Part shown: positions 6,209 through 33,605 of the stretch, piece by piece | How positions within the stretch are numbered: position 1 is the first letter of the stretch | Layout: the number at the start of each line of letters is the position of its first letter | From: a virus | IMG/VR virus record: IMGVR_UViG_3300032296_000916 | Coordinates: 1-39,793 of that record | Reading direction: 5' to 3' (one strand) | DNA: 39,793 nucleotides | The notes under the pieces: generated by a model | Told to the model about the DNA's origin: nothing | Seen by the model: only the letters and a program-made list of their open reading frames with translations | Database searches by the model: none | Program-made: the position numbers and the translations under genes

Positions 6209-8620
6209 ATGGCAGATGTCTTAAAACCGCTACCCGCAGTTGTAACCGATACATATGCAACGAAGTCTCCTCGCATTAACAATCCAAGCGATAAACCTCG
6301 TATTCTTGATCTTGATGTTGTTGATGCAACTCCCAGCAATGATAATGAAACGGTTAATAAGGACACTCTTGAAGTCAAGCGCACATTCAAGGATGCCTCG
6401 CAAGCACACTCTGCTTATCGCCGCCTTAAACAGCAGAATGTCGAGAGGAATCGCAAGAATCAACTGATTCAAAAGAAACTCAACAATGAACCTCCATATT
6501 CTCCGAAAAAATTGGAAAGCATGGGCCAAAATTGGCGTTCTAATCGTCCTACTGGTTTTCTTTCCACGATGGTTGCGAGAATTCAGCCCCCCTTCCGCCA
6601 AGTCATCGAACAGGCTACAACTCTCACTTTCTCAAAATACCCAATCGAAGGAGTAGACGCAGAAAATAAAACAAAGATTTTCCGTGAAGAAATTACCAAG
6701 TGCATTCGCGGTTGGACTGGACACGACGATCTTGTTGCTCAAATAGTACACGAAAACACCACTTTTGGATTCTGCGGAGTTTGTTGGGATGATCTTCGTG
6801 ATTGGAAGCCAGAATTCCTTCGTCAAGACTATACTTTCTTCTCTATTGAGACACCTCAAGAGGTTGAAGCAACTCCGATTTGGGCTAGGAAGCGCCGATA
6901 TCAAATTGCAGAGCTTTTGCCTATTTTGGAAGACCCAGTTACCTCCGCAATGGCTGGTTGGCACATTAAGAACCTTGTTAGGTCTATCAATAATGCAACT
7001 CCTGCTGGTCGAACCCTTGACTCCGATGATGATGCTCGCAGGTATGAGGACTGGATTCGTGAAGGATCGTATGGAGCAAGCTACGAGAATGACGCGAAGT
7101 ATGTTGAGCTTGGAGAACTTCTAGTTAAAGAACCTCACGGAAAGATCAGTCGATTCTTGTTTGATGACAAATCTGGAGACGAGATTTGCACACAGATTGA
7201 CCGCTACAACAAGATGAGTGAGTGCCTTGCGTTGTTCGCAATCGAGATTGGAAATGGCAATCTCATGGGTTCCCGTGGTGCAGGCCGCGATCTTTACAAC
7301 ACCCACATTGCTGTTGATAAGGCTCGAAACCTTGTTGTTGACAATGTGTATCTCAAGGGGATGTTGCTTCTAAAGAAAGGCCCAAATGCCAAAGCTGGAG
7401 CCGCTCCGCTGACCGTTCATCACCCTGTCTGCTATATTGCGGAAGGATATGAAGTCATTCCTCAAAACCTGCCTGCTGATGTTGATGACTTCCTTCGCTT
7501 GGATCAATTCATCTCTGGACTTGCTGAAATTCAAGTTGGAACATTCTTGCCGGGTTCTCCCATTGAAGCACAGGGAAGCAAAACGGCATCCGAGGTTAAT
7601 CGTGTTGCGGCTATTGAAAATCAGTTGCGCCAAGGTATCCTTATGCGCTGGACAAAGCAGTATTCCAAAGCTGTTGAGCGTATGCAGCGTGGCATCTGCC
7701 ATCCAGAACATGTAAAAGCTGCTAGTGAGCTTAAAACTCGTCTTGACATCGCTCGCCAAATGGTTCCGAACGCAGTTTGGGCTAGGCGTGATGTTGTTGA
7801 TGCTTTTGATCGCTCTGTGATGGATTTGCCGTCATTCCTTGTTCCTTTTGAGATTCCAGAACACTTGGATGAGGATGCCATTAATTGTTGCTTGAATATG
7901 CTGGAGCGCAACCTTCCTCCTTCTGACATTCTTCTCATGGCGTTTAGTCCAGCCGAAGAGTTGCTGGCAGATACCCAAGCTCAAGACAACGCAATGCTGG
8001 ATATGATGATTCAGCGTTATACTGGCAACCCAAATGTCAACCAAGATGAGCTTCTAAAGCTCGATTGGAGCCGTAAGATGGGTGAAGAAATTGCTAATGC
8101 GGTTATTCTGCCAAAAGACCAAGTTGAAACAATTGCTATTGAGGCAACCCGTCAGCAGATTATCGAACTGCAATCCATTATCGCAGGACAAGAGGTTCCT
8201 GTTTCTCCTCGTGACAATGACATTGTTCATCTTGATGTTATTTCTCAAAAGCTCATGCCATTGATTGAACAGGCTCCAGCTGGCGCATTGCCTCCAGAGA
8301 TGGTTCAACCATTTATGAAGGCGCTTCAGCACTTCATGGGGCATGTCCAGCAAGCGAAAGCTAAAGGTTCTAATACGGCGCAATATGAGCAGGCAGCAAA
8401 GCAAGCATTCGCACATCTTACTGCCGGACATGGAACGCCTCCTCCTCCAGAGCTTACTCCTGCTGCTGGTGCTGGAATGCCTTCTGGTGGTCGCGGAGGC
8501 CGTGCGCCAGTTGTAGCACAATCCCGTGAAGTTGGCGCAATTTCAGAGTCTCAAGCTCCAACAATGTCAGGAACGATTGCAAATATTGCAAACCCTCCAA
8601 AGCCTCCTACTGCTGGATAA
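6209..8620 (+). CDS. Portal protein (podovirus type)
   Basis: Predicted dodecameric ring at the capsid vertex through which DNA enters and leaves. It is the first large gene after the terminase. 803 residues is somewhat longer than P22-type portals (~725). Visible features include a polar N-terminal arm (1-75), a mixed alpha/beta body with an aromatic FGFCGVCWDDLRDW segment (about 188-201), and the portal-like KTASEVNRVAAIENQLRQG (about 458-476), followed by a long helical stem/crown. The last ~85 residues are Ala/Gly/Pro/Gln-rich and probably disordered or a barrel-like crown. The start follows an AATAAATT leader. It is adjacent to a gene for a putative head-associated protein. Confidence 0.8.
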   Translation: MADVLKPLPAVVTDTYATKSPRINNPSDKPRILDLDVVDATPSNDNETVNKDTLEVKRTFKDASQAHSAYRRLKQQNVERNRKNQLIQKKLNNEPPYSPKKLESMGQNWRSNRPTGFLSTMVARIQPPFRQVIEQATTLTFSKYPIEGVDAENKTKIFREEITKCIRGWTGHDDLVAQIVHENTTFGFCGVCWDDLRDWKPEFLRQDYTFFSIETPQEVEATPIWARKRRYQIAELLPILEDPVTSAMAGWHIKNLVRSINNATPAGRTLDSDDDARRYEDWIREGSYGASYENDAKYVELGELLVKEPHGKISRFLFDDKSGDEICTQIDRYNKMSECLALFAIEIGNGNLMGSRGAGRDLYNTHIAVDKARNLVVDNVYLKGMLLLKKGPNAKAGAAPLTVHHPVCYIAEGYEVIPQNLPADVDDFLRLDQFISGLAEIQVGTFLPGSPIEAQGSKTASEVNRVAAIENQLRQGILMRWTKQYSKAVERMQRGICHPEHVKAASELKTRLDIARQMVPNAVWARRDVVDAFDRSVMDLPSFLVPFEIPEHLDEDAINCCLNMLERNLPPSDILLMAFSPAEELLADTQAQDNAMLDMMIQRYTGNPNVNQDELLKLDWSRKMGEEIANAVILPKDQVETIAIEATRQQIIELQSIIAGQEVPVSPRDNDIVHLDVISQKLMPLIEQAPAGALPPEMVQPFMKALQHFMGHVQQAKAKGSNTAQYEQAAKQAFAHLTAGHGTPPPPELTPAAGAGMPSGGRGGRAPVVAQSREVGAISESQAPTMSGTIANIANPPKPPTAG

Positions 8621-8624
8621 AATT

Positions 8625-9230
8625 ATGGGCGGATCAAATACAACTGAAGCGATGAAGACATATCGCAAATATCAAAATCAAGTAACAAAAGATGAGAAAA
8701 GCGAGGGAATGTCTAATGAAACAGAAAAGGCATATGCTAAATTTGACAATCCAACAGTTGAAGATAGCGGAATTGAACTAGGAAAGCTGCTTGATGCTGG
8801 AAAAAACGCGAAAGATGGCATTGCGAATTTTTATGGAAGGGATGTAAATACTGAATTAAAATCTAATCCTAATTCCATTCGTCCAGACGGAACAAAAAAG
8901 GGAAGTGGATTTCTTGGTGGAATGAAAAGACTTGATGATCCAAGTGGAGTATCAAGCGAAATATCTATTGGAGTAGATTGGGGAAGCGGAGAAAAACTTA
9001 TTCCCACAATGGTTCCAACACTTGATAGCAATGAAATTAAATACTTGCTTTCCACTCCAGAAGATAAAATTTTTACAGAAAATCCAGAATTAGGTAAAAA
9101 AATCGAACAAAAAGCAGTTAGATTTGCAAAAGAAAGAGAAGCAAAGGGATTGCCTTTTTTTGCTCAAGAAAATGAATCAATAAAACAAAAGCCAATGTCA
9201 TCGTATAATGCAATAAATTCGGGGCTATAA
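8625..9230 (+). CDS. Putative virion protein with MGG start and AI-x-x-GL C-terminus
   Basis: The start at 8625 follows an AAAATT leader 5 bases after the portal stop; upstream in-frame starts lie inside the portal gene. The 201-residue product begins MGGSN. Its middle (RPDGTKKGSGFLGG about 88-101, then SIGVDWGSGEKLIPTMVPTL about 116-135, then a helical PFFAQ end) matches a domain I recall from phage structural-region proteins. It ends in KPMSSYNAINSGL, nearly the same end as the next protein. Probable internal head or assembly protein; biochemical function unknown. Confidence 0.6.
   Translation: MGGSNTTEAMKTYRKYQNQVTKDEKSEGMSNETEKAYAKFDNPTVEDSGIELGKLLDAGKNAKDGIANFYGRDVNTELKSNPNSIRPDGTKKGSGFLGGMKRLDDPSGVSSEISIGVDWGSGEKLIPTMVPTLDSNEIKYLLSTPEDKIFTENPELGKKIEQKAVRFAKEREAKGLPFFAQENESIKQKPMSSYNAINSGL
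9187..9206 (+). repeat. 20-base direct repeat, copy 1 (end of first MGG gene)
   Basis: Exactly matches 10027-10046, 840 bases downstream, with further similarity after one mismatch. It encodes the K-P-M-S-S-Y start of the shared C-terminal motif in two adjacent genes. Confidence 0.85.
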
Positions 9231-9233
9231 ATT

Positions 9234-10073
9234 ATGGGCGGAGCAAATTATCAGGCAAGGTATCAAAACTCAATTGCAAGCACAAATGGCTCGCAATATT
9301 CTCCAGAAGTCCAAAAAGACAGGGAGAAAGTTTTGAAGCAACCATTTAATGCCGATAGCAGTGAATACGATTACAAGACTGCTGAAGAATCTGGTATGTT
9401 GCCAGATTTGAGTCCGGGGAAGAATTTTGGACACATGGGTTCAGTTACTCAAGTTAATGAAGACATTTACCAAAAATACAAAGAGCATGGACTTCCTTCT
9501 GGTGAGTCTTATATCGTTCTAAAAGGTGCAAGTCATCCAAGTCACGATGACTTGATTAAAGGAGAAGCTGAACGAGGATTTGAAGTTAAAAAGTTTGGTG
9601 ATAGATATTTTTCTGTTCCAAAAAATCAAGATGAATCAATATATGGTTATCCAGTAAGAAAACCATACAAAAGCGAAGAAGAGTTTTTCAAAAAAAGGCC
9701 GGAAGTCGCAGGAATGGCAACAGAAGATAATGCGATAACATTAAATCCATATAGCAAAAATACTCCAGAGCAACAAAAATTGGTGGCAAAAAACGAAGCT
9801 ATTAGACAATATCTAAAGGAAAATAAAATATCCCCTGCATTCAATTTAACGCCTGAACAAGAAACCGCATTTTCTGAAACTGAATATGGAAAAATAAAAG
9901 ATAAAACACCATTAAAACATACAATTATTGCAAGAATACTTACTGGTGATTTATCTGCTGGAAATATAACTGAAGAACAAATAAATGAATCTAAAAAAAT
10001 TCAACAAAAATTGGATTCATTAACAAAAAAGCCAATGTCATCGTATGATGCTATTGAAGCCGGACTGAAGTAG
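9234..10073 (+). CDS. Putative virion protein with conserved LNPYS/EQ domain and AI-x-x-GL C-terminus
   Basis: 279 residues beginning MGGAN. From about residue 155 there is a helical domain that I recognise from environmental phage proteins: an EDNAITLNPYSKNTPEQQ segment, a NEAIRQYL helix, LTPEQETAFSETEYG and ARILTGDLSAGNITEEQ. The function of that domain is not known to me. The N-terminal half is Ser/Tyr/Gln-rich and has a small beta-rich part (SYIVLKGASHPSHDDL). The C-terminus MSSYDAIEAGLK matches that of the preceding protein, both in protein and over 20 bases of DNA. The start is 3 bases after the previous stop. Likely a head-associated or ejected protein. Confidence 0.6.
   Translation: MGGANYQARYQNSIASTNGSQYSPEVQKDREKVLKQPFNADSSEYDYKTAEESGMLPDLSPGKNFGHMGSVTQVNEDIYQKYKEHGLPSGESYIVLKGASHPSHDDLIKGEAERGFEVKKFGDRYFSVPKNQDESIYGYPVRKPYKSEEEFFKKRPEVAGMATEDNAITLNPYSKNTPEQQKLVAKNEAIRQYLKENKISPAFNLTPEQETAFSETEYGKIKDKTPLKHTIIARILTGDLSAGNITEEQINESKKIQQKLDSLTKKPMSSYDAIEAGLK
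10027..10046 (+). repeat. 20-base direct repeat, copy 2 (end of second MGG gene)
   Basis: Exact copy of 9187-9206, in the same reading phase and the same position relative to the stop codon region. It marks a shared terminal module of two neighbouring genes. Confidence 0.85.
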
Positions 10074-10113
10074 TCGAGGCGCTTTACAATAATAAACAAA
10101 TCTATAACAAATT

Positions 10114-10353
10114 ATGAAGTGGAAAGAATCCGATAGCGTTGCTCTTCGAGAATATCTTATTAAGTCAAACAATAAACTGATTGAATACTACCGATCACGC
10201 ATTCCTCTTTGCAACGGCAAGAGCATAGAACAAGTAGCATTGCAAGCAAAATTCAAAGAAGGTTTTGAATACGCAATTAAAGAATTGATTGACTTATCTT
10301 CAAAAAATGATGAAGACACTGACGCTTCTTCTGGAAACTTTACAACAATGTAA
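10114..10353 (+). CDS. Small phage protein, helical, unknown function
   Basis: 79 residues with an LREYL-type N-terminus, YYRSRIPLCNGKSIEQVALQ and an F-x-x-G-F-E-Y-A helix, a pattern I recall from small phage head-region proteins. The C-terminal ~18 residues are Asp/Ser/Thr-rich and disordered. The gene follows a 40-base A/T-rich gap and has an ACAAATT leader. It lies between the two MGG proteins and two very basic small proteins. No enzymatic motif; possibly structural. Confidence 0.55.
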   Translation: MKWKESDSVALREYLIKSNNKLIEYYRSRIPLCNGKSIEQVALQAKFKEGFEYAIKELIDLSSKNDEDTDASSGNFTTM

Positions 10354-10355
10354 TT

Positions 10356-10514
10356 ATGGCAAGAACTAAACAACAAGGATTGTGGGCTAATATCCACGCT
10401 AAACGGGAACGCATTGCTGCTGGTAGCGGCGAGAAGATGAGGAAGCCCGGATCAAAAGGCGCTCCTACTGCAAAAGCATTGAAACAATCGGCTAAAACCG
10501 TTAAGAAAAAGTAA
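10356..10514 (+). CDS. Very basic 52-residue phage protein
   Basis: The product begins MARTKQQGLWANIHAKRERI and continues with a Lys/Arg/Gly-rich tail containing a GEKMRKPGSKGAP segment. I recognise this as a recurrent tiny phage protein found near head genes. Roughly a third of residues are basic, which suits DNA or RNA binding or charge neutralisation of packaged DNA, but no role is established. The start is 2 bases after the preceding stop with a GTAATT leader. Its TAA stop overlaps the next ATG by one base. Confidence 0.65.
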   Translation: MARTKQQGLWANIHAKRERIAAGSGEKMRKPGSKGAPTAKALKQSAKTVKKK

Positions 10515-10765
10515 TGGCTGAAATAAAAAAACGATTCACTAAAATTGTCGTTAATAAAGCGACTGGCCGCACTAGGACGGTTAAGTATGGTCAAGCTGGA
10601 AAAGCTGCTGATGGCAAAGATCGAATTCGTCCGGGAACTAAAAAAGGTGACGCATATTGCGCTCGCTCTTTGAAAATTAAAGGTGATTGGAAAAAAGATA
10701 AAAATAGTCCAAACAGCCTTTCTCGTAAAAAATGGCGTTGCCGTGGCGCTAAATCAATGAAATAG
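10514..10765 (+). CDS. Very basic small phage protein with GDAYCARS motif
   Basis: 83 residues, strongly basic (about one third Lys/Arg). It contains GTKKGDAYCARSLKIKGDW (about 41-59) and NSLSRKKWRCRGAKS (about 66-80), two blocks with one conserved Cys each. I recall this as a phage family often encoded close to portal and capsid genes. It may bind nucleic acid in the head or stabilise packaged DNA; this is inference from charge and place. It is coupled to the previous basic gene by TAATG. Confidence 0.65.
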   Translation: MAEIKKRFTKIVVNKATGRTRTVKYGQAGKAADGKDRIRPGTKKGDAYCARSLKIKGDWKKDKNSPNSLSRKKWRCRGAKSMK

Positions 10766-10784
10766 TAAAACAATCAATAAATCT

Positions 10785-12056
10785 ATGACAGAAGAAAACA
10801 ATACAGAAAATACAGTCGAACCCGATGTTACGGGATTCGGAAACCCTAGCCTAAACAATGATCCAATTGATGACACTACAGACCAAGCAATCGACAGTCT
10901 CCTTGATGAAGCACTTGGAGAGGTTGAACCGACAACTGAAACCAAAACTGAAGAAGTGGTTAGCGAACCAGAAGCGGTTTTGGAAGAACCTGCTGCTCCT
11001 GTCCCTGAACCTTCCGCTGAACCCACAACCCAAGTTGAGTCAGTTCAAGCCGAAGCAAAGCCGCAAGTCGAAATTGATCCAGAAATCGCAGCCATTGAGC
11101 AACCTCGCAATCTCTCGGAAAAAAACCAAAGCAATTGGCGAAAACTACAAGAGACTGCCAGCCAATACAAGCAACAAGCCGCCGAAGCAGAAGTTCTGCG
11201 TCAGCGACTCGCCGAAACAGAGCAAAGGAAAGAAATCCCGCAGGACTACGAAGAACTCAAAAAGTTCCGCGCAATCTTCGACATCAAAAACGACCCAGAG
11301 TTCAAAAGTAAATACGAAGCGCCAATCCGAAGCGCAAAAGAAAGTATATATGGAATTCTGAAAAAGCATGGTGCTGGAGATGAAGTAATCGAAAGCATTG
11401 AGAAGGCTGGAGGCCCAGACAAGATTGCTGATTCCTTTTGGAAGCAACCTGCTTTTAATAATCTTCCTCTGACTGACGCTGAAAAGCTCAAACGCAACCT
11501 AGTTGATGTTTCTGACCTCAATGAGAAGCAACAAGCGGAAGTTGCTCATGCCGCTGAACACGCTGAAGAAATCATGCAACAGCGTGAAACGGCAAATAAA
11601 GAGTGGTATTCCAAAGAAGTTGAGCAAATCGACTCCTACATGGATGAAATCACGAAAGAATTGCCTTGGGCGCGATTCGTAGAACCGAAACCAGATGCTA
11701 CTCCAGAGCAGATTCAGCAAATTGAGTCGCATAATAAGCGAGTTGGAGACCTTGCTACCAAGTTTAACTCTGCTTTGTGGCCAACGACTGCGCAAGAGCG
11801 AGCCAATGTTGCCGCTGCCGCTGTTTTTAGCCATGTGCTGACAGATCAATTGCGAACAGAACAAACGCAAAAGAACGCACTGCTTGAGCAAGTGAAGCGA
11901 TTGACTGATGAGAATAACAAGCTCAAAGGAAGCTCCAAGCTACCTAAACAGACTGTTAAGACTCCAGCATCTAACAAGCCATCGAATCTTTCAGATCGAA
12001 TTAAAATGAGTTCTGGAGATGCCATTGATCTTGGACTAGACGAAGCTCTTGGTTGA
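10785..12056 (+). CDS. Scaffold-like acidic coiled-coil protein
   Basis: 423 residues. The N-terminal ~105 are acidic and Pro/Glu/Val-rich (disordered). A helical, coiled-coil core follows (about 110-160, 255-290, 355-385), and then a basic linker (KLPKQTVKTP) and a short amphipathic C-terminus, MSSGDAIDLGLDEALG. Size, acidity, coiled coils and place after the portal fit an internal scaffold that shapes the prohead; scaffolds of P22 and phi29 bind coat through their C-terminal helix. The C-terminal DEALG end is echoed near residue 40 (DQAIDSLLDEALGE). The gene that would normally follow, the major capsid protein, is not here. A different head or internal protein is possible. Confidence 0.6.
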   Translation: MTEENNTENTVEPDVTGFGNPSLNNDPIDDTTDQAIDSLLDEALGEVEPTTETKTEEVVSEPEAVLEEPAAPVPEPSAEPTTQVESVQAEAKPQVEIDPEIAAIEQPRNLSEKNQSNWRKLQETASQYKQQAAEAEVLRQRLAETEQRKEIPQDYEELKKFRAIFDIKNDPEFKSKYEAPIRSAKESIYGILKKHGAGDEVIESIEKAGGPDKIADSFWKQPAFNNLPLTDAEKLKRNLVDVSDLNEKQQAEVAHAAEHAEEIMQQRETANKEWYSKEVEQIDSYMDEITKELPWARFVEPKPDATPEQIQQIESHNKRVGDLATKFNSALWPTTAQERANVAAAAVFSHVLTDQLRTEQTQKNALLEQVKRLTDENNKLKGSSKLPKQTVKTPASNKPSNLSDRIKMSSGDAIDLGLDEALG

Positions 12057-12063
12057 TAAATTA

Positions 12064-12136
12064 GCCCTTATAGCTCAATGGTTAGAGCAGTCGGCTCATA
12101 ACCGATTGGTTATAGGTTCAAATCCTGTTGGGGGCA
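12064..12136 (+). tRNA. tRNA with anticodon CAU (Ile-AUA type or elongator Met)
   Basis: A full cloverleaf can be folded. The acceptor stem has 7 pairs with two G-U, the D stem is GCTC/GAGC, the anticodon stem is GTCGG/CCGAT with loop CTCATAA, and the T stem is ATAGG/CCTGT with loop TTCAAAT. The discriminator base is A and CCA is not encoded. The D loop, anticodon arm and TGGTT variable loop resemble bacterial tRNA-Ile2, whose CAU is modified by TilS to read AUA. Elongator tRNA-Met has the same anticodon loop, so the identity stays open. It begins 8 bases after the scaffold-like gene. Confidence 0.9.
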
Positions 12137-17545: not shown

Positions 17546-17866
17546 TTATTTTGTTTTTCTATATTTTTTGAGGTTGGTTGTATGGAGAATTTTCTTCGGA
17601 TTCGCAGACTTTAGTTGGTTCGATTTTTTTGCAATGTCGTATGCTTGCTTGCGACTTACCATGCGACCTTTCGAGGTCTTAAATCCATATTCAGGCGTTT
17701 CCCTTTCAGAATCTTTATCTGGAGCATCAGGATTAGCGTCTTTATGTGATTCCCCTTCAGTTATCTCGCCTGTTTCTGGATCAGTATATGTTGCAGAAAC
17801 AATACGCTCATCAGAATCAGATTTCTTAACAGAAGAAATCTTCGGAATTGTGATGATTTTAGGCAT
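17546..17866 (-). CDS. Small polar protein coupled to the largest ejection-type protein
   Basis: 106 residues. The first half has a Thr/Asp/Glu-rich, mostly disordered stretch. The second half contains EYGFKTSKGRMVSRKQAYDI (about 59-78) and a basic C-terminus (KKYRKTK). The 'YGFxTSxGRxVxRxxA' element looks like one I have seen in phage virion-region proteins, but I do not know its function. Its start overlaps the 1027-residue gene's TAA by one base (TAATG). Its partner is likely the large protein. Confidence 0.5.
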   Translation of the reverse strand: MPKIITIPKISSVKKSDSDERIVSATYTDPETGEITEGESHKDANPDAPDKDSERETPEYGFKTSKGRMVSRKQAYDIAKKSNQLKSANPKKILHTTNLKKYRKTK

Positions 17867-20800
17867 TACTCCTCAACTTCTTCAGTTGGAGTTTCTTGTT
17901 TTTGAACTGCTTCAACTCCAGCTTTTCCTCTTATTGCCATGCCATACATATTAAATAAATCATTAATTTTTGGCATATTTTCAGAAGTTGGCTTTAACAT
18001 CATGGTTCTTGCAATCTCTGGATCAAGCATTGCATCAGTCAGCATTTTACGCATGATTTCCAATGTTTCTTGACCATATGTTTTTTGTATTTTGCGAAGC
18101 AAATCAACTCCCTTAAATGCAACGAATCCTCTTACTCCGCCAGCAGTAATTGCAGCGATTTCAAGTAATGTATCTTTGACTGGAGATTCTTTTGCCTGTC
18201 CTGCTTTTTCCAGTTTTGCAGGTTCAGCAATTGAAGCCCTCCCTCTTCTTTCAATCATTTCTAATTGACGCCTTACTTCATCAAGAACTCTTAAATCAGA
18301 AGATTCTTTTCCAAATACAGTTTCAAGTGCATTTCTAGTAGGGCTTCCTTTAATAATTAAATTTCTTAATACATCCAAATTTGCAGCGTAATCTTCTGGA
18401 GAAGCAACTTCTTTCGGAATCCCTGTTCCAACCGTTTCTCCTGTTCTTGCTGTAGTATTAAGCCATCCCTTAAATGCGTTTCTCAATCCCTCTATAGCTT
18501 CTCCGCTTGGGTCTTGTTTTGCCTTCTCAACTAAATTAGAAATGTTTTCCTGAACATTTGGCCCAGACATAATTCTCTTAATGACTTGTTGAGGATTTCC
18601 TCCAACAAAAGCGGCGGCTGGGTTTTTTGATGGATCAATTGATTTTTGTAAATTGTCACTCAATTCACCAGCTAGTTTTTTGTATGATTTTTCGATTAAA
18701 CGAATTCTTTCATTCGCTTCGCTTTCTGCATCGGAAGCACTTTTCCCTAGCTTTTGAGCTTCTTTTTTAGATTTTTCTACAAATATCTTGGCCTCATTTT
18801 TTGCTTTTTCAAGATTTTGGAAATCATTAATAGACTTGATAATTTGTCCTTTGTCTTTATCAAATTCATCTGGAAACTCTTTGGAAATTCTTTGCCCAAC
18901 ATTTGTAACCCAGTTTTTAATAGATTGAGATGTATTGCTTTCTTTCATGGCATCTGCCATTGTGCCATATACCCATTTATTAATAGCTTCTCTTGCCGTC
19001 TCCCTATCCGCATCAGCAAGAATTCTTTGCTCTGGAGTTAGCTTGTTGTAAAACTCTGGATTTACATCAATCGCTTTTTTAAGTCTTTGTATTTCTTCTT
19101 TTCCTAGCTGTTTTTGAGATGGTTTTAAGTATTCATATAGAGATTTACTTGGTTCAACCTTCTCATCAAACACTTTTTTAGATGCTCCTTTTTTGTAAAC
19201 ATCTGCATATTGAGCATATAGTTTATTTGCATTCTTTACTGCTTCATTAACATCACCGAGCTTTTCAATATCCTTATTAAGACCATCTTTTACAATAAGA
19301 AGAAGCCTCCTATTATTTTCATTTGGTTCTTTTCTAATTGCAGCATTTATTTCTTTGATATTTGCAGTTAAATCACCTAGTTCCCTAGAATAAAAATTTC
19401 CTTCATTATCAACAATTGATTTGTAAAGACTTTTAATGTGGCTTGGAATATTAGGATTCAATTTAATTTGATCTTGAATTGATTCAATTCCTCCTACAGA
19501 TGAAACTTCTTTATTTTTAACTATTTGTTCTATTGATTTTGCCGTTTCATTTTGCTGGAACGGTGGGGTTTCAATTTTTGCAGCATCATATGCTTGATTT
19601 ATGATGTCTTTTTGCCTTGATCTTTGATTTGAAATAACATTTGTGACAAGTTCACTTGCCTGATCTCTTTGATTTGCATCAACTTTATCTTTAACGCTTT
19701 GAAATTTTTGCTTTAATGCTTCCGTTGCGTTTTCTAGTGATTCTTTTGATGTTTGAATTCCTTGTTCTGCAAGTTGTTTTTGTTCGTTTGCAAAAATAGA
19801 TGCTTCATCAAGAATTCTAGCGGATTCAGCATCACCAGATGCGATAAGCGAAGATTTGGCTTGTTCTGCTTGATTTGTAATATCGTCAAGTTCTGCCTTA
19901 AAATATGCTTGTGCCTGTTCTGGAGTTGCGCCTGCTTGCTCCATTCCTTTTTCTAATTTTTGAGATATTCCAGCGACATTTTCAATATCCCTAGTCATCA
20001 TTTCATCGGAGATTGAGCGCAACTTGTTTTGCAACTGAATCATCTTTGGATCAGCCGTGATATCTCCAGTCATCGGCTTGATTCCAGCTTCAGTAACACT
20101 TGGAGCTTCTGCCAATGCTTGTATCGCTTTTTCTTTTCCTATTGTTGACTCACGCAAGACTCCAGCAGCCAATTCTTCCGCTTTTGCAGCTTGACCTGCC
20201 CTGCGAATTGCTGGAACCAATTTTCCAAGTGTTCCGCCAACAGCAGAAACGGCTGGAACACCAATAAGTCCAGCACCAAGTCCAACCCCAAGTTGAGCAA
20301 GTGGCCCTCCTCCCATTTCTTCAGTTTGCTGAACAGCGCCACTAACAGAACCGCCAATTGCAGCTTGTCCCACTGGTGATGTTCCCATGGCCTCTGCAAA
20401 ATCTTTAAGTTTCCCAGCAGATACAGCTTTAGACAATCCTTTTAATGCACCAGCGCCAGTCGCCATTTCAGTGACTCCACGCGAAACAGCTTCAGTCATT
20501 CTTTCAGCGTATGTCCTCGGCTTTGGAACGCCAACAGCATCAAGTGCAGCGGTTACAGCATCCTCTGGAACACTATAATGAGTTCCTAGAAATTTATTTA
20601 CTGATTCGGTGGTTAATTCAGCTATTGAATTTACCAAACTTTTACCTCCAGCCATTTCAGAAACTGCACCAACAGAAGGCCCAGCCGCTGCCCCTAAAGC
20701 AACTCCGGGAAAACCAAGTGGCATTCCAAGTATTGCTCCAGCAGTTGATTCAGCTATTGTTGGAACAACTCCCCTTACAACAGAGCCAGCAAGTCCAGAT

Positions 20801-20949
20801 GCAGTCGTAGATGGTTCTTCTTCAACTTCAGAAAAATCTATTTTAGATTCCTTTTCTTCTTTTGGAGTAAATGAAATGGATTTATTAGAAGAATCATCCT
20901 TCTTCTCATTTTCATTTTCTTTTTTTGTAGGAGTAAAATTAATTGCCAT
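17866..20949 (-). CDS. Large ejection-type internal virion protein
   Basis: 1027 residues. A Lys/Asp/Ser-rich disordered head (1-50) is followed by Gly/Ala-rich hydrophobic stretches (about 52-115 and 150-260) that could insert into membranes. Long charged helices and coiled coils follow (about 300-480 and 690-760), then a helical C-terminal domain. This layout resembles the large internal core or pilot proteins of short-tailed phages (T7 gp16, P22 gp16/gp20), which are ejected first and help build the conduit across the envelope. No lytic transglycosylase motif is visible. A tape measure is less likely because no tube or sheath genes are present. The start follows an AAATTAAA leader. Confidence 0.6.
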   Translation of the reverse strand: MAINFTPTKKENENEKKDDSSNKSISFTPKEEKESKIDFSEVEEEPSTTASGLAGSVVRGVVPTIAESTAGAILGMPLGFPGVALGAAAGPSVGAVSEMAGGKSLVNSIAELTTESVNKFLGTHYSVPEDAVTAALDAVGVPKPRTYAERMTEAVSRGVTEMATGAGALKGLSKAVSAGKLKDFAEAMGTSPVGQAAIGGSVSGAVQQTEEMGGGPLAQLGVGLGAGLIGVPAVSAVGGTLGKLVPAIRRAGQAAKAEELAAGVLRESTIGKEKAIQALAEAPSVTEAGIKPMTGDITADPKMIQLQNKLRSISDEMMTRDIENVAGISQKLEKGMEQAGATPEQAQAYFKAELDDITNQAEQAKSSLIASGDAESARILDEASIFANEQKQLAEQGIQTSKESLENATEALKQKFQSVKDKVDANQRDQASELVTNVISNQRSRQKDIINQAYDAAKIETPPFQQNETAKSIEQIVKNKEVSSVGGIESIQDQIKLNPNIPSHIKSLYKSIVDNEGNFYSRELGDLTANIKEINAAIRKEPNENNRRLLLIVKDGLNKDIEKLGDVNEAVKNANKLYAQYADVYKKGASKKVFDEKVEPSKSLYEYLKPSQKQLGKEEIQRLKKAIDVNPEFYNKLTPEQRILADADRETAREAINKWVYGTMADAMKESNTSQSIKNWVTNVGQRISKEFPDEFDKDKGQIIKSINDFQNLEKAKNEAKIFVEKSKKEAQKLGKSASDAESEANERIRLIEKSYKKLAGELSDNLQKSIDPSKNPAAAFVGGNPQQVIKRIMSGPNVQENISNLVEKAKQDPSGEAIEGLRNAFKGWLNTTARTGETVGTGIPKEVASPEDYAANLDVLRNLIIKGSPTRNALETVFGKESSDLRVLDEVRRQLEMIERRGRASIAEPAKLEKAGQAKESPVKDTLLEIAAITAGGVRGFVAFKGVDLLRKIQKTYGQETLEIMRKMLTDAMLDPEIARTMMLKPTSENMPKINDLFNMYGMAIRGKAGVEAVQKQETPTEEVEE

Positions 20950-20955
20950 TTTAAT

Positions 20956-22533
20956 TTATTTCAGCTTATACCCCTGTTTTATAGCTTCATCAACTTGAGA
21001 TTCTGGAATTTCTCCCTCTTGTCCATCTGGACTAATTACTTGCACTTTTTTTGAAGATTGCGTCTTTGATTTAGATGTTTGTGTTTTTGGATACACCAAA
21101 GATGGAGGCTCGTATTTTTCATCAACCTTTTTAATTTCATCTACTGCTGATTTAATAAACTTCAATCTTGCATCTCTAATGGTTATTAGCCTTGGAAGGA
21201 TATCTGTCCATTCCAGTCTATCCAAATCCAGCGCTCCTTCTGTTTGCGATAATGCTTCTCTTTCTGCTTCTGTTAGTTGTCCAACACTAATTCCTGCTTT
21301 TTTAAGTTCCATCAAAGCATTAAGTGAAATCGCTATCTTTGCTGGATTTATTAATCCCCTCAATCTCCTAGCTGGAGTATATGGAACATTTGCAACATAA
21401 CCACTAACGCCTCCAACAGAACTTGGATTATTATTTATTATATCTATCATCTGATCTAATTCTTTAACAGATGTAGATGCTTGTTCTAACTGCGTTTTAT
21501 ATTGATTTACATTATCTTTTGTTATCTTATTAGATTTAGATTCAGCTTCTTGCTGTTTCAAAGCAAAATTTTGAGCGTCGTAAAAAGCTTTTAACTTTTC
21601 TTGCTGTTCACCGATCCTGTCACCTCTTACATTCCTTGCTTTCCATGAAAACCAATCATCCTTATCTGTTGTAAGATCAAATTCCCAATCTGGATTTTTT
21701 GCTGGCTTATTAGCCCTAGCTTCTTTTTCGGTTTCAAATTTATTTTCGCCAGAAACAACAGGTTCTTCATATACTGTATAATCCACTTTCGGAGGTTGTT
21801 GTGGCGTTTCTACTCCTGTTGCTGGAGCCGAATCAGTGGGGGCTTGTTTTGCCTGTTGAACTGCTTGCTGTGCTTCAGGAGCAACAATTTCGGCTTGCTG
21901 TGGTTGTTCTTTTGGAGCTGGCGTTGCTTTTGCTATTTCTCTCAAAGAAAAACTAAACCCTTCTTCTGGCTTTTCTTCTGGAGCCAGCCATGCAGCTGTT
22001 GATCCATAATCTGGAAGAGGATTTTCAACTATAGGCACTTCTTCTGGAAGCGCACTTATAGGAGGTTCTTCGGTATCAGTTTTATTTGTTACTGAACTTG
22101 GAACTTTAGCTTTAATATCTTCAGCGGCCCTATCGAATGCGTCAAGCCGTTCTTGAAAATCTGCTCTTTGAGAATTTTCAGCAATAAACTTCATTCGCTC
22201 CTTATCAAGCCATGTATTCTCTGGAGATGATGCCTTGATAGCTGCAACTCGAAGCTCATGCTTTCTCTCTTCTTTTTTCTCTTCTTTAGCTTGTTCCGCT
22301 TTATATTTAGCTGTAATTCCTTCGGTAATTCCTCCGACAGCGGAAAGAATTCCCTTTGAAATTCCTTCAGACACAAGCTCTGGACGCGAGGATGGAACGG
22401 GAGCGTATGTTAATGGACGAAGCTCGAATTCCGCTCTGCGAGTTACATCAAGTGGAGTCAAACCTTGCAATGCACCAAGATTGGCGAATTGAGGCTGGAA
22501 CTTATAGCCTTCGCCGGAATAAGAAATTGCCAT
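20956..22533 (-). CDS. Ejection-type internal virion protein
   Basis: 525 residues. The N-terminal ~190 are amphipathic helices (GISKGILSAVGGITEGITAK about 57-76, then a Lys/Glu-rich coiled coil). The middle (about 190-270) is Pro/Gln/Glu-rich and disordered. The C-terminal part is helical, with a VGGVSGYVANVPYTPARRLR segment (about 383-402) and LTEAEREALSQ, similar to phage internal proteins I remember. The C-terminus PDGQEGEIPESQVDEAIKQG (about 503-522) ends in GYKLK and resembles terminal tags of other phage virion proteins. It follows two Gln-rich genes and has a GGAGGAG ribosome site, stronger than most here. Confidence 0.6.
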   Translation of the reverse strand: MAISYSGEGYKFQPQFANLGALQGLTPLDVTRRAEFELRPLTYAPVPSSRPELVSEGISKGILSAVGGITEGITAKYKAEQAKEEKKEERKHELRVAAIKASSPENTWLDKERMKFIAENSQRADFQERLDAFDRAAEDIKAKVPSSVTNKTDTEEPPISALPEEVPIVENPLPDYGSTAAWLAPEEKPEEGFSFSLREIAKATPAPKEQPQQAEIVAPEAQQAVQQAKQAPTDSAPATGVETPQQPPKVDYTVYEEPVVSGENKFETEKEARANKPAKNPDWEFDLTTDKDDWFSWKARNVRGDRIGEQQEKLKAFYDAQNFALKQQEAESKSNKITKDNVNQYKTQLEQASTSVKELDQMIDIINNNPSSVGGVSGYVANVPYTPARRLRGLINPAKIAISLNALMELKKAGISVGQLTEAEREALSQTEGALDLDRLEWTDILPRLITIRDARLKFIKSAVDEIKKVDEKYEPPSLVYPKTQTSKSKTQSSKKVQVISPDGQEGEIPESQVDEAIKQGYKLK

Positions 22534-22535
22534 AA

Positions 22536-23051
22536 TTAAGCTCCTCCAAATTTCAGATCACTAGATGAAGGAAGTGAGAAAATATTAGCTTTCTTTGAGG
22601 TAGATGCCGCACCTTGATTTACTAGTCCAGCAAGAGCGGGATTAACTGCGGTAGATGGAAGATTAGAAGGTGTAGAAGGCAACATTCCTTGCGCTGCACC
22701 AAGATTGGAAAGAGCTTCTTCACGAGCTTTATTCACATCGTATCCTCCACCAGTTGCCATTTGACCAGCGGTAGCCTGTGCTTGTTGTGCGGCAAGAAGT
22801 GCGTTTGCATCACGAATTGATTGCATGGAACCCATTGTCGCTAGTTCCTGCCTAGCGGCTTGCTCTGATTGTTGTTGGCGTTGAGTCCCAGCGGTCATTT
22901 GCGACTGCTTTAGCGCCTCTTCTTGTGCCTTTTGAGCGGCAGCAGCTTGAGCGGCTTGCTGTGCTTGCATTTGAGCCAAGAATCCAAGCATCGGGTCTGG
23001 CCCTTCTGCTTTTGGTTTTGGTTTGGAACCTCCTCCTCTTCCTCCTCCCAT
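22536..23051 (-). CDS. Gln/Ala-rich virion protein, paralog 1
   Basis: 171 residues starting MGGGRGGGSKPKPKAEGPDP, then a long Gln/Ala helix (about 30-100) and a Gly/Asn-rich end closing with LKFGGA. It is a clear paralog of the next gene upstream: both start MGG plus basic residues, share a GPDPM motif (about 18-22), the same Gln/Ala helix, a GGGY or AGGYN break and an FGGA end. Such Gln-rich helical proteins with Gly/Ala ends resemble T7 gp14-type ejection proteins. A GGAGGAG site precedes the start. Confidence 0.55.
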   Translation of the reverse strand: MGGGRGGGSKPKPKAEGPDPMLGFLAQMQAQQAAQAAAAQKAQEEALKQSQMTAGTQRQQQSEQAARQELATMGSMQSIRDANALLAAQQAQATAGQMATGGGYDVNKAREEALSNLGAAQGMLPSTPSNLPSTAVNPALAGLVNQGAASTSKKANIFSLPSSSDLKFGGA

Positions 23052-23052
23052 A

Positions 23053-23538
23053 TTATGCTCCTCCGAATGTTAGTCCAGAAATGGACGGTGTATTAAATTG
23101 ATTTAACCTTTGTTGGGTTCCGCCAACACCTTGATTTGCGGCCATGGCGGCAGCGGCTCCAATGCCGGGTTGAACAGGGGCGGCTGAAACGCTTGGTTGA
23201 GCAGTTGCGCCAACATTGTATCCTCCAGCAGTCGCTCCAGAACCCATTCCAGCAGATGCTTTTTGTTGCGCTGCCATAGTAGCTTGGTCTTGCGCTTGCT
23301 GACCAACATTCATTCCACTCAATGCTTGGCGTGCGGTAGCTTCACCTTGTTGCATGGCTTGCATTCCAGCTTGTCGTTGAGCTTCTTCTTGAGCTTTCCT
23401 TTGAGCTTCAGCGGCTGCTTGAGCTTGTGCGGCTTGCTGTTGCTGTTGCATAGCCATAAATGCAATCATTGGATCAGGGCCAGAAGATTGCTGTTGCTGT
23501 TGGGATTCTTGTTTAGGTTTTGATCGTCGTCCACCCAT
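23053..23538 (-). CDS. Gln/Ala-rich virion protein, paralog 2
   Basis: 161 residues starting MGGRRSKPKQ with a Gln run, a GPDPM motif (about 20-24), a Gln/Ala helix (about 25-95), a Gly/Ala/Pro-rich middle and an end in LTFGGA. It pairs with the 171-residue paralog by tandem duplication: the shared blocks are N-terminal MGG+basic, GPDPM, the helix and FGGA. The start lacks a Shine-Dalgarno and uses an AAAAATT leader. It is probably packaged and ejected with DNA. The long Gln stretch is low-complexity, so sequence similarity alone is a weak guide. Confidence 0.55.
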   Translation of the reverse strand: MGGRRSKPKQESQQQQQSSGPDPMIAFMAMQQQQQAAQAQAAAEAQRKAQEEAQRQAGMQAMQQGEATARQALSGMNVGQQAQDQATMAAQQKASAGMGSGATAGGYNVGATAQPSVSAAPVQPGIGAAAAMAANQGVGGTQQRLNQFNTPSISGLTFGGA

Positions 23539-25478: not shown

Positions 25479-26336
25479 TTAATCTCCGCCACTGCCCCAA
25501 GTTTTATTTGCAAAAGCCGATCCCGCACCTTGAGCCGCACCTTGAACAATACTTCCAGCGCCTTGAATATATGCACCAGTCATTGCATTTCGTGCAGCTT
25601 GGTTTTGAGCTTGTTGTCCAAGCAATGCACCTTGGTAATTCAATTTGTTTTGCATTGCGTTTTGATACAAGTTTTGGAAATTTGCTCCAGATTGCGCCAT
25701 TTGATCGGCAACGGATTGGTTGTATCCACCAATGTTGCCATACATGGCATTTTGCCAGTTTTGCATTGCCTGCAAATTAGCGGCTTTATTAGCTTCTTGC
25801 GCTGAAATGGAAGATGTCGGATCAATTCCACCAACAGGAGCTTGCATTTGACGAAGAGTTTCTTGCTGTAGTGCAAGATTTTGTTGATCGTAATTTGCTT
25901 TAGCCTTTAATGCTGCATCATACATTGCGGCCTGACCAATCGTTGAATCACCAAGTCCTGTCTCGTAGCCTTGAATAAGACCTTGATTCCGCGCCCATTC
26001 ATTCATGTAGCGAGTTGCGTTATCAATGCTTGCAAGTCTAGCTAATTCAGCTCCTTGAGCTTGTCGCATTTGCGCCGCTTCAGGAGAAACCATTTTTTCC
26101 AATTCCCTAGAACGCTGAACATTCGCCATTCCAAGTTCAGAAAGTCTTTTTGACTCCTTGAGAGCATCATACTCTTGCTGTGCTGGAGCCATTTTTGCAT
26201 AAGCATCAAGCAATTTGGCTTGATTTTCCTGTTGCTGTGCTTGGGCTTGCATCATTGCCATTTGAATTGCCAAATCACGCGAAGAATCTGGTTTACTCAA
26301 ATATTGCCTTGCATCAACTGTTTTTGACCCGCCCAT
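25479..26336 (-). CDS. Gln/Ala-rich internal virion protein, tandem paralog B
   Basis: 285 residues starting MGGSKTVDARQ, rich in Gln, Ala and Asn. Blocks shared with its neighbour include LGDSTIGQAAMYDAALKA (about 125-142), Q-x-A-P-V/I-G-G-I/L-D-P (about 165-173) and a mid-protein Gln/Asn helix. It ends in a Gly/Ala-rich hydrophobic tail (GAGSIVQGAAQGAGSA) and a GSGGD terminus. The tandem duplication with 24684-25475 and the second Gln-rich pair nearby suggest that the phage builds a multi-subunit internal core from several related proteins. Function inferred from composition and place. Confidence 0.6.
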   Translation of the reverse strand: MGGSKTVDARQYLSKPDSSRDLAIQMAMMQAQAQQQENQAKLLDAYAKMAPAQQEYDALKESKRLSELGMANVQRSRELEKMVSPEAAQMRQAQGAELARLASIDNATRYMNEWARNQGLIQGYETGLGDSTIGQAAMYDAALKAKANYDQQNLALQQETLRQMQAPVGGIDPTSSISAQEANKAANLQAMQNWQNAMYGNIGGYNQSVADQMAQSGANFQNLYQNAMQNKLNYQGALLGQQAQNQAARNAMTGAYIQGAGSIVQGAAQGAGSAFANKTWGSGGD

Positions 26337-33173: not shown

Positions 33174-33605
33174 TTAATCTTCGTTTTCCTCTTCGTCTTC
33201 TTCTTCCATTTCTTCGGATTCGCCTTCGGCTGCCTTCAAGCCTACTTCGATTGCGTCCTCATCGTCCTCTTCTTCTTCCATTTCGTTTTCTGGCATTTCT
33301 TCGCAACATTCTGGCTTGATGCCGCAGATGCAAAGCTCAACGGAATGCCGCTTCTCATTTTTGCCATTGCGAGTAATATCTTCTGTGCGTTCCATCACTT
33401 TTTTGTAATGGATAATTGCCATGCCTTCCTTTCCGAGCTTTTCAAGGCCTTTTACATTGTCAAAATATAGCGAAGGATAGTGATATTTTGGCGATTCTTC
33501 AGATTCTTCAGAACCCATTGAGATCGTCATTCCACCAGACTTAAGTTCTTCTCCAAGGTTGATGAAATCTGATTTGAGTTTAACTTTTTCGTTAGCGTAT
33601 GGCAT
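33174..33605 (-). CDS. Acidic capsid-staple-like protein
   Basis: 143 residues. The core (about 35-95) reads YHYPSLYFDN, GMAIIHYKKVMERTEDITR and SVELCICGIK, which resembles the beta-fold of small capsid-stapling proteins of podoviruses (phage epsilon15 gp10 type). I am not certain. The C-terminal ~40 residues are extremely acidic (EEEEDD, EEMEEEDEEENED) and contain DAIEVGLKA, matching the C-terminal motif of the head proteins at 8625-12056. A Cys cluster (CICGIKPECC) lies before the tail. It overlaps the preceding membrane gene by 14 bases. The acidic tail could bind basic partners. Confidence 0.45.
   Translation of the reverse strand: MPYANEKVKLKSDFINLGEELKSGGMTISMGSEESEESPKYHYPSLYFDNVKGLEKLGKEGMAIIHYKKVMERTEDITRNGKNEKRHSVELCICGIKPECCEEMPENEMEEEEDDEDAIEVGLKAAEGESEEMEEEDEEENED

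Follow-up and report, generated by a model that had tools for sequence, protein, structure and literature searches.

A C-terminal motif of a putative scaffold protein recurs on unrelated proteins in a family of uncultured tailed phages

Why should neighbouring phage genes whose products are otherwise unlike encode the same short C-terminal peptide? The question is raised by a virus fragment of an uncultured tailed-phage family (IMG/VR record IMGVR_UViG_3300032296_000916), which was analysed over its whole length of 39,793 bases and is referred to below as the window. The original prediction for this locus proposed a common tag recognised by the capsid or the portal. A search with the portal gene retrieved 73 related loci, among which no cultured relatives were found, and the sampling was extended with nine longer contigs and with 80 extra loci reached via a candidate coat protein. 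The features of the window discussed here are collected in Table 1.

Table 1. Positions of the putative head genes, slot ORFs and terminal motifs in the window.
Feature	Coordinates	Strand	Basis or remark
Putative portal protein, left border of the slot	6209..8620	+	Position after the large terminase
Cargo ORF 1: MGG start, A-type module with FYGRDV, B domain (~8877-9176), tag	8625..9230	+	
Tag of cargo ORF 1, KPMSSYNAINSGL	9189..9227	+	
Cargo ORF 2: MGG start, C module 9360-9623, D module 9705-10010, tag	9234..10073	+	
Tag of cargo ORF 2, KPMSSYDAIEAGLK	10029..10070	+	
Scaffold-like protein, 423 aa	10785..12056	+	Synteny and composition
N-terminal near-copy AIDSLLDEALG, scaffold residues 35-45	10887..10919	+	
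Scaffold tail, DAIDLGLDEALG	12018..12053	+	Core is the most conserved 9-mer across 427 scaffold columns
Small acidic-tailed protein	33174..33605	-	
DAIEVGLKA in the acidic-tailed protein	33231..33257	-	Modelled helix, residues 118-127, modest confidence

The proteins encoded at 8625-9230, 9234-10073 and 10785-12056 end in KPMSSYNAINSGL, KPMSSYDAIEAGLK and KMSSGDAIDLGLDEALG, respectively, as had been claimed, and DAIEVGLKA is indeed present before the acidic tail of a small protein encoded on the minus strand. The predicted recurrence of this terminal motif extends to the relatives: the strict pattern [DNE]AI[DEN]xGL matched 126 times in a non-redundant set of 2,912 proteins, drawn from 200 overlapping family loci, compared with 0.2 times in shuffled sequences, although many of the sequences are closely related and the matches are not independent events. 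All 126 lie no more than 23 residues from the C-terminus, and they are distributed over 77 scaffolds, 20 acidic-tailed proteins and 29 other ORFs. Across ten genomes, 28 strict matches were found (0.0 in shuffled proteins), each likewise within 23 residues of the C-terminus; these were confined to three protein classes, and the other genes were without the motif. The bearers represent three unrelated families, namely the scaffold-like protein, the small acidic-tailed protein and cargo-like ORFs located between the portal and scaffold genes. When C-termini were compared within genomes, the motif was the only similarity seen to join clearly unrelated families.

This distribution bears on the possibility that the motif is a binding site through which a host factor, such as a chaperone, protease or adaptor, engages several phage proteins. 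We consider this the least probable of the explanations weighed here: in the ten genomes, only the scaffold, the proteins encoded next to it and one additional small protein carry the motif, and up to 23 residues follow it, unlike in typical C-terminal degrons.

A further example had been proposed at the end of the ejection-type protein encoded at 20956-22533 (EAIKQGYKLK). This ending belongs to a separate C-terminal segment, VISPDGQEGEIPESQVDEAIKQGYK, which is missing from the orthologues, whose ends are quite different, and the protein was therefore rejected as a bearer. For the large ejection-type protein encoded at 17866-20949, several relatives carry A[SIT]DFG[LI] near the C-terminus and the copy in the window does not; the resemblance of these ends to the tag is suggestive only.

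The motif coincides with the best-conserved part of the putative scaffold, which was assigned by synteny and composition. When 80 scaffolds were aligned, the lowest mean entropy in the protein was that of the 9-mer AIDLGLDEA, at 0.20 bits versus 1.49 bits over all columns, and the best-conserved stretch is formed by the last ten residues, with the tail peptide DAIDLGLDEA. The tail fits the strict pattern in 77 of the 80 proteins, differs by one substitution in the other 3, and is kept even in scaffolds that are 47-56% identical to the rest. Furthermore, a scan of IMG/VR DNA for DAIDxGL[DE]EA in any codons found at least 80 loci, and among the matches listed, 79 of 80 were family scaffolds ending 2-3 residues later. 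In its place at the extreme C-terminus and in its strong conservation, the tail agrees with a P22-like coat-binding element. A second conserved element, which the original prediction missed, lies at the scaffold N-terminus and has the consensus IDxLLDEA; in the window, this N-terminal segment matches the C-terminal AIDLGLDEALG at 9 of 11 positions. A tRNA-Met gene (12064-12136) directly follows the scaffold gene.

In the acidic-tailed protein, the strict motif was present in 27 of the 28 distinct members of a separate, looser collection, and one further member has EIENGL instead. A structure model based on 22 sequences comprises a long beta hairpin spanning residues 62-99 and a predicted C-terminal helix corresponding to the motif, with a mean pLDDT of 68 and values of ~50-60 over the helix. 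The earlier label 'capsid-staple-like' gained no support: sequence searches of PHROGs, Pfam and NCBIfam returned no convincing family, and Foldseek gave no match with E <= 0.001 in PDB or BFVD. The recruitment reading developed below accounts for the motif on this protein with less certainty, which counts against that reading.

The remaining bearers are encoded in a variable slot, the region from the portal gene to a conserved 79-residue ORF. In the clade of the window (portal 87-100% identical), there are 17 distinct slot arrangements with 26 ORFs, and the tag ends every one of these ORFs, fusions included (23 in the strict form and 3 as DVIN[AT]EL). Across the tagged ORFs, the bodies combine at least six modules: A-type, with an MGG start and an FGRD-like motif; B, with RPDGTxKGSGFLG; C, with DYKTAEESGMLPD; D, with GMATEDNAITLNPYS; E, ~280 residues long with HEVGH, a metallopeptidase-like HExxH; and F. 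The modules occur singly or fused (B+A, C+A, C+D and B+F, as well as B+D in a sister clade), always with one terminal tag per polypeptide, and in some fusions, what was once the intergenic stretch, together with an internal MGG, is part of the join. The metallopeptidase-like motif of the tagged E-type ORFs (L007:8064-8981 and relatives) lies in FIGTLEHEVGHH; no convincing match to these ORFs was obtained in Pfam, NCBIfam, PHROGs or PDB. The B domain is the only cargo part with cultured relatives, which include Acinetobacter phages; one of these is gp49 of Acinetobacter phage Acibel007, encoded between the endolysin and terminase genes, and a Pseudomonas phage protein has another relative at its end. 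None of the cargo modules was detected within the giant ejection proteins. The N-terminal MGG is a second terminal feature common to several proteins, being present in the cargo ORFs starting at 8625 and 9234, in Ala/Gln-rich proteins encoded at 22536-23051, 23053-23538 and 25479-26336, and in relatives.

Some tagged slot ORFs are short (82-88 aa) and comprise little beyond a short module and the tag. Together with the presence of the same peptide in neighbouring genes, this would suit small assembly modulators that compete for the scaffold docking site rather than cargo that is delivered. We regard this as improbable, given that the large interchangeable bodies, one of them metallopeptidase-like, look like effectors.

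Selection acts on the protein, because the number of synonymous codons used for each of the invariant residues A, I, G and L ranges from two to six within families. The original prediction had argued for protein-level conservation from the codons of the scaffold-like copy, and the case is stronger than stated there: even the two cargo tags of the window differ by a synonymous change at every invariant residue (GCA/GCT, ATA/ATT, GGG/GGA and CTA/CTG), and the residues between the invariant positions vary. A role at the RNA level was rejected, with codons varying and the three tails of the window having no strong or common RNA fold. The KPMSSY codons are identical in both cargo genes, whereas the rest differs, and this segment may represent a homology seam. 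The cargo tags could accordingly be a functionless shared 3' end spread by recombination between neighbouring genes, with only the scaffold motif being of consequence. This is even less probable than competition by modulators, because each invariant codon has diverged synonymously with the amino acids unchanged, and because deeper clades place the core in other contexts (RDLDAIEAGL, AEDAIEQGLRDA and SSEQAIDIGL).

The scaffold tail is essentially fixed, whereas the cargo tag is losable. In a sister clade (portal 79-82% identical), the last slot ORF is A-type and has kept its body without the tag, whereas the upstream E, C or B+D ORFs are tagged; in L027, a member of this clade, the B domain is joined to an A-type end that has no tag. 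The tag is missing from most slot ORFs in clades at ~70%, many of these ORFs being unrelated basic proteins, and the standalone B protein also ends without the tag. Other deep A-type ORFs have variant ends, namely AEDAIEQGLRDA, SSEQAIDIGLA, SSQQAIESGLR, DDEIEMGLR and EDVIEMEIRKA. Since the untagged slot ORFs cluster in the sister and ~70% clades, tag absence follows clades. Random loss of the motif from otherwise intact relatives had been named as an argument against a common tag; the loss is by clade instead, but some bodies are kept without the tag, so that no strict rule holds. The idea of a common tag thus survives in the scaffold, whose best-conserved part recurs in unrelated proteins, and in the fully tagged slots of the window's clade, but not in its ejection-protein example.

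Because the most fixed part of the scaffold also ends unrelated neighbouring proteins, we interpret it as a peptide that docks on one receptor shared by all these proteins. Specifically, we propose, with a probability of about 0.56, that the motif is a procapsid-recruitment peptide that imitates the scaffold tail and shares its receptor, for which the inner face of the coat protein is the strongest candidate. The motif would form a short helix and, at the C-terminus of the scaffold, would anchor this protein inside the growing procapsid, most likely docked on the major coat protein. Cargo proteins encoded between the portal and the scaffold, each carrying a copy of the tag, would bind the same site, be co-assembled into the head and probably be ejected with the DNA. 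The slot would then behave as a cassette, in which bodies are swapped or fused and one end tag per polypeptide is kept.

The coat is favoured as the receptor by analogy with P22 and herpes simplex virus. In P22, the C-terminal helices of the scaffold gp8 lie on the coat, and removal of the 11 terminal residues abolishes binding (PMC9965877). The likeness is in the extreme scaffold C-terminus, which would also be the inner-capsid anchor here; however, no sequence relationship was detected. The main rival receptor is the portal, because the C-terminal hook of the P22 scaffold anchors there too (PMC12005531). Recruitment to the portal, or to scaffold oligomers, would gather the tagged proteins at the portal vertex, in keeping with the location of the cargo genes directly after the portal gene and with the view that, in P22, ejection proteins and scaffold assemble together around the portal (PMC12005531). 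We consider this version unlikely, as a scaffold present at hundreds of copies mainly contacts the coat, and the motif is also found on the acidic-tailed protein. In the cited work on P22, the tail is not described as common to separate cargo genes.

A candidate coat protein of 397 residues, designated by synteny and conservation, is encoded outside the window. In G001 and G003, its gene lies downstream of the scaffold gene at a distance of a few genes (G003:1238-2431, minus strand). The protein is 84-99% identical across relatives, which would fit the fixed docking surface required by the recruitment reading. Structure prediction gave a pLDDT of 31 and no usable model, and a coat-profile scan of bacterial genome contigs found no relative. 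Searches of PHROGs, Pfam, NCBIfam, PDB and cultured phages did not recognise the candidate coat by family or structure, and yielded no convincing family for the scaffold or for the portal, the latter being assigned by its position.

The arrangement of the gene blocks differs among contigs. In the window, the tail/fibre/ejection block (15226-39774) lies on the minus strand, head to head with the terminase-portal-scaffold block; in G001 and G003, the two blocks lie on the same strand, and both are also present on contig IMGVR_UViG_3300033571_012232 (L074, L322). The opposed orientation in the window is either an inversion or an assembly feature. G002 (71,431 bases) has the terminase-portal-scaffold block in two divergent copies, which suggests that this contig is chimeric or joined. 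G001 encodes a large terminase (L092:9732-12572) of 947 aa, versus 622 in G003, and a LAGLIDADG-like domain is present in it, the extra length probably being an intein or homing insertion.

In herpesviruses, the UL26 and UL26.5 products are encoded by overlapping frames and share a single tail; the protease is part of UL26. The coat of herpes simplex virus binds the 25 C-terminal residues of both scaffold products (PMC12005531). The likeness is in two products whose C-terminal residues bind the major capsid protein, whereas the tail described here sits on unrelated genes. The internal proteins of T4 are a highly diverse set in which only the targeting sequence (CTS) is conserved, and the CTS can target foreign proteins to the head (PMC3012670). 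Here, too, small proteins that are otherwise unlike carry a short conserved peptide; however, the CTS is N-terminal, whereas the present tag is C-terminal and looks like the tail of the scaffold itself. The CTS is cut off by a prohead protease; no gene for such an enzyme was recognised here. For DarB of P1, the N-terminal 30 residues are enough for a reporter to be packaged in the head (PMC9024508), again a terminal peptide acting as a packaging signal, as is predicted here from sequence, but one that is N-terminal and not reported as common to a scaffold (PMC9024508). The present tag would work much as the T4 CTS or the shared herpesvirus tail does, except that it is both C-terminal and scaffold-like.

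A more far-reaching version, which we hold tentatively and at somewhat less than even odds, is that the anchoring tail of the scaffold became a universal cargo tag, with a cassette beside the scaffold gene that swaps effector domains, including a metallopeptidase-like one. Every new polypeptide would keep a single copy of the scaffold tail, and whatever domain is joined to this tail would enter the head and reach the host. If so, the tag would provide a sequence-readable rule for recognising virion-borne proteins of an uncultured phage group, and the slot would be a place to collect head-delivered proteins from metagenomes. Other phage groups could be searched likewise for scaffold tails recurring on neighbouring genes. 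The arrangement would also suggest a simple evolutionary route to head cargo, namely copying the docking tail of the scaffold.
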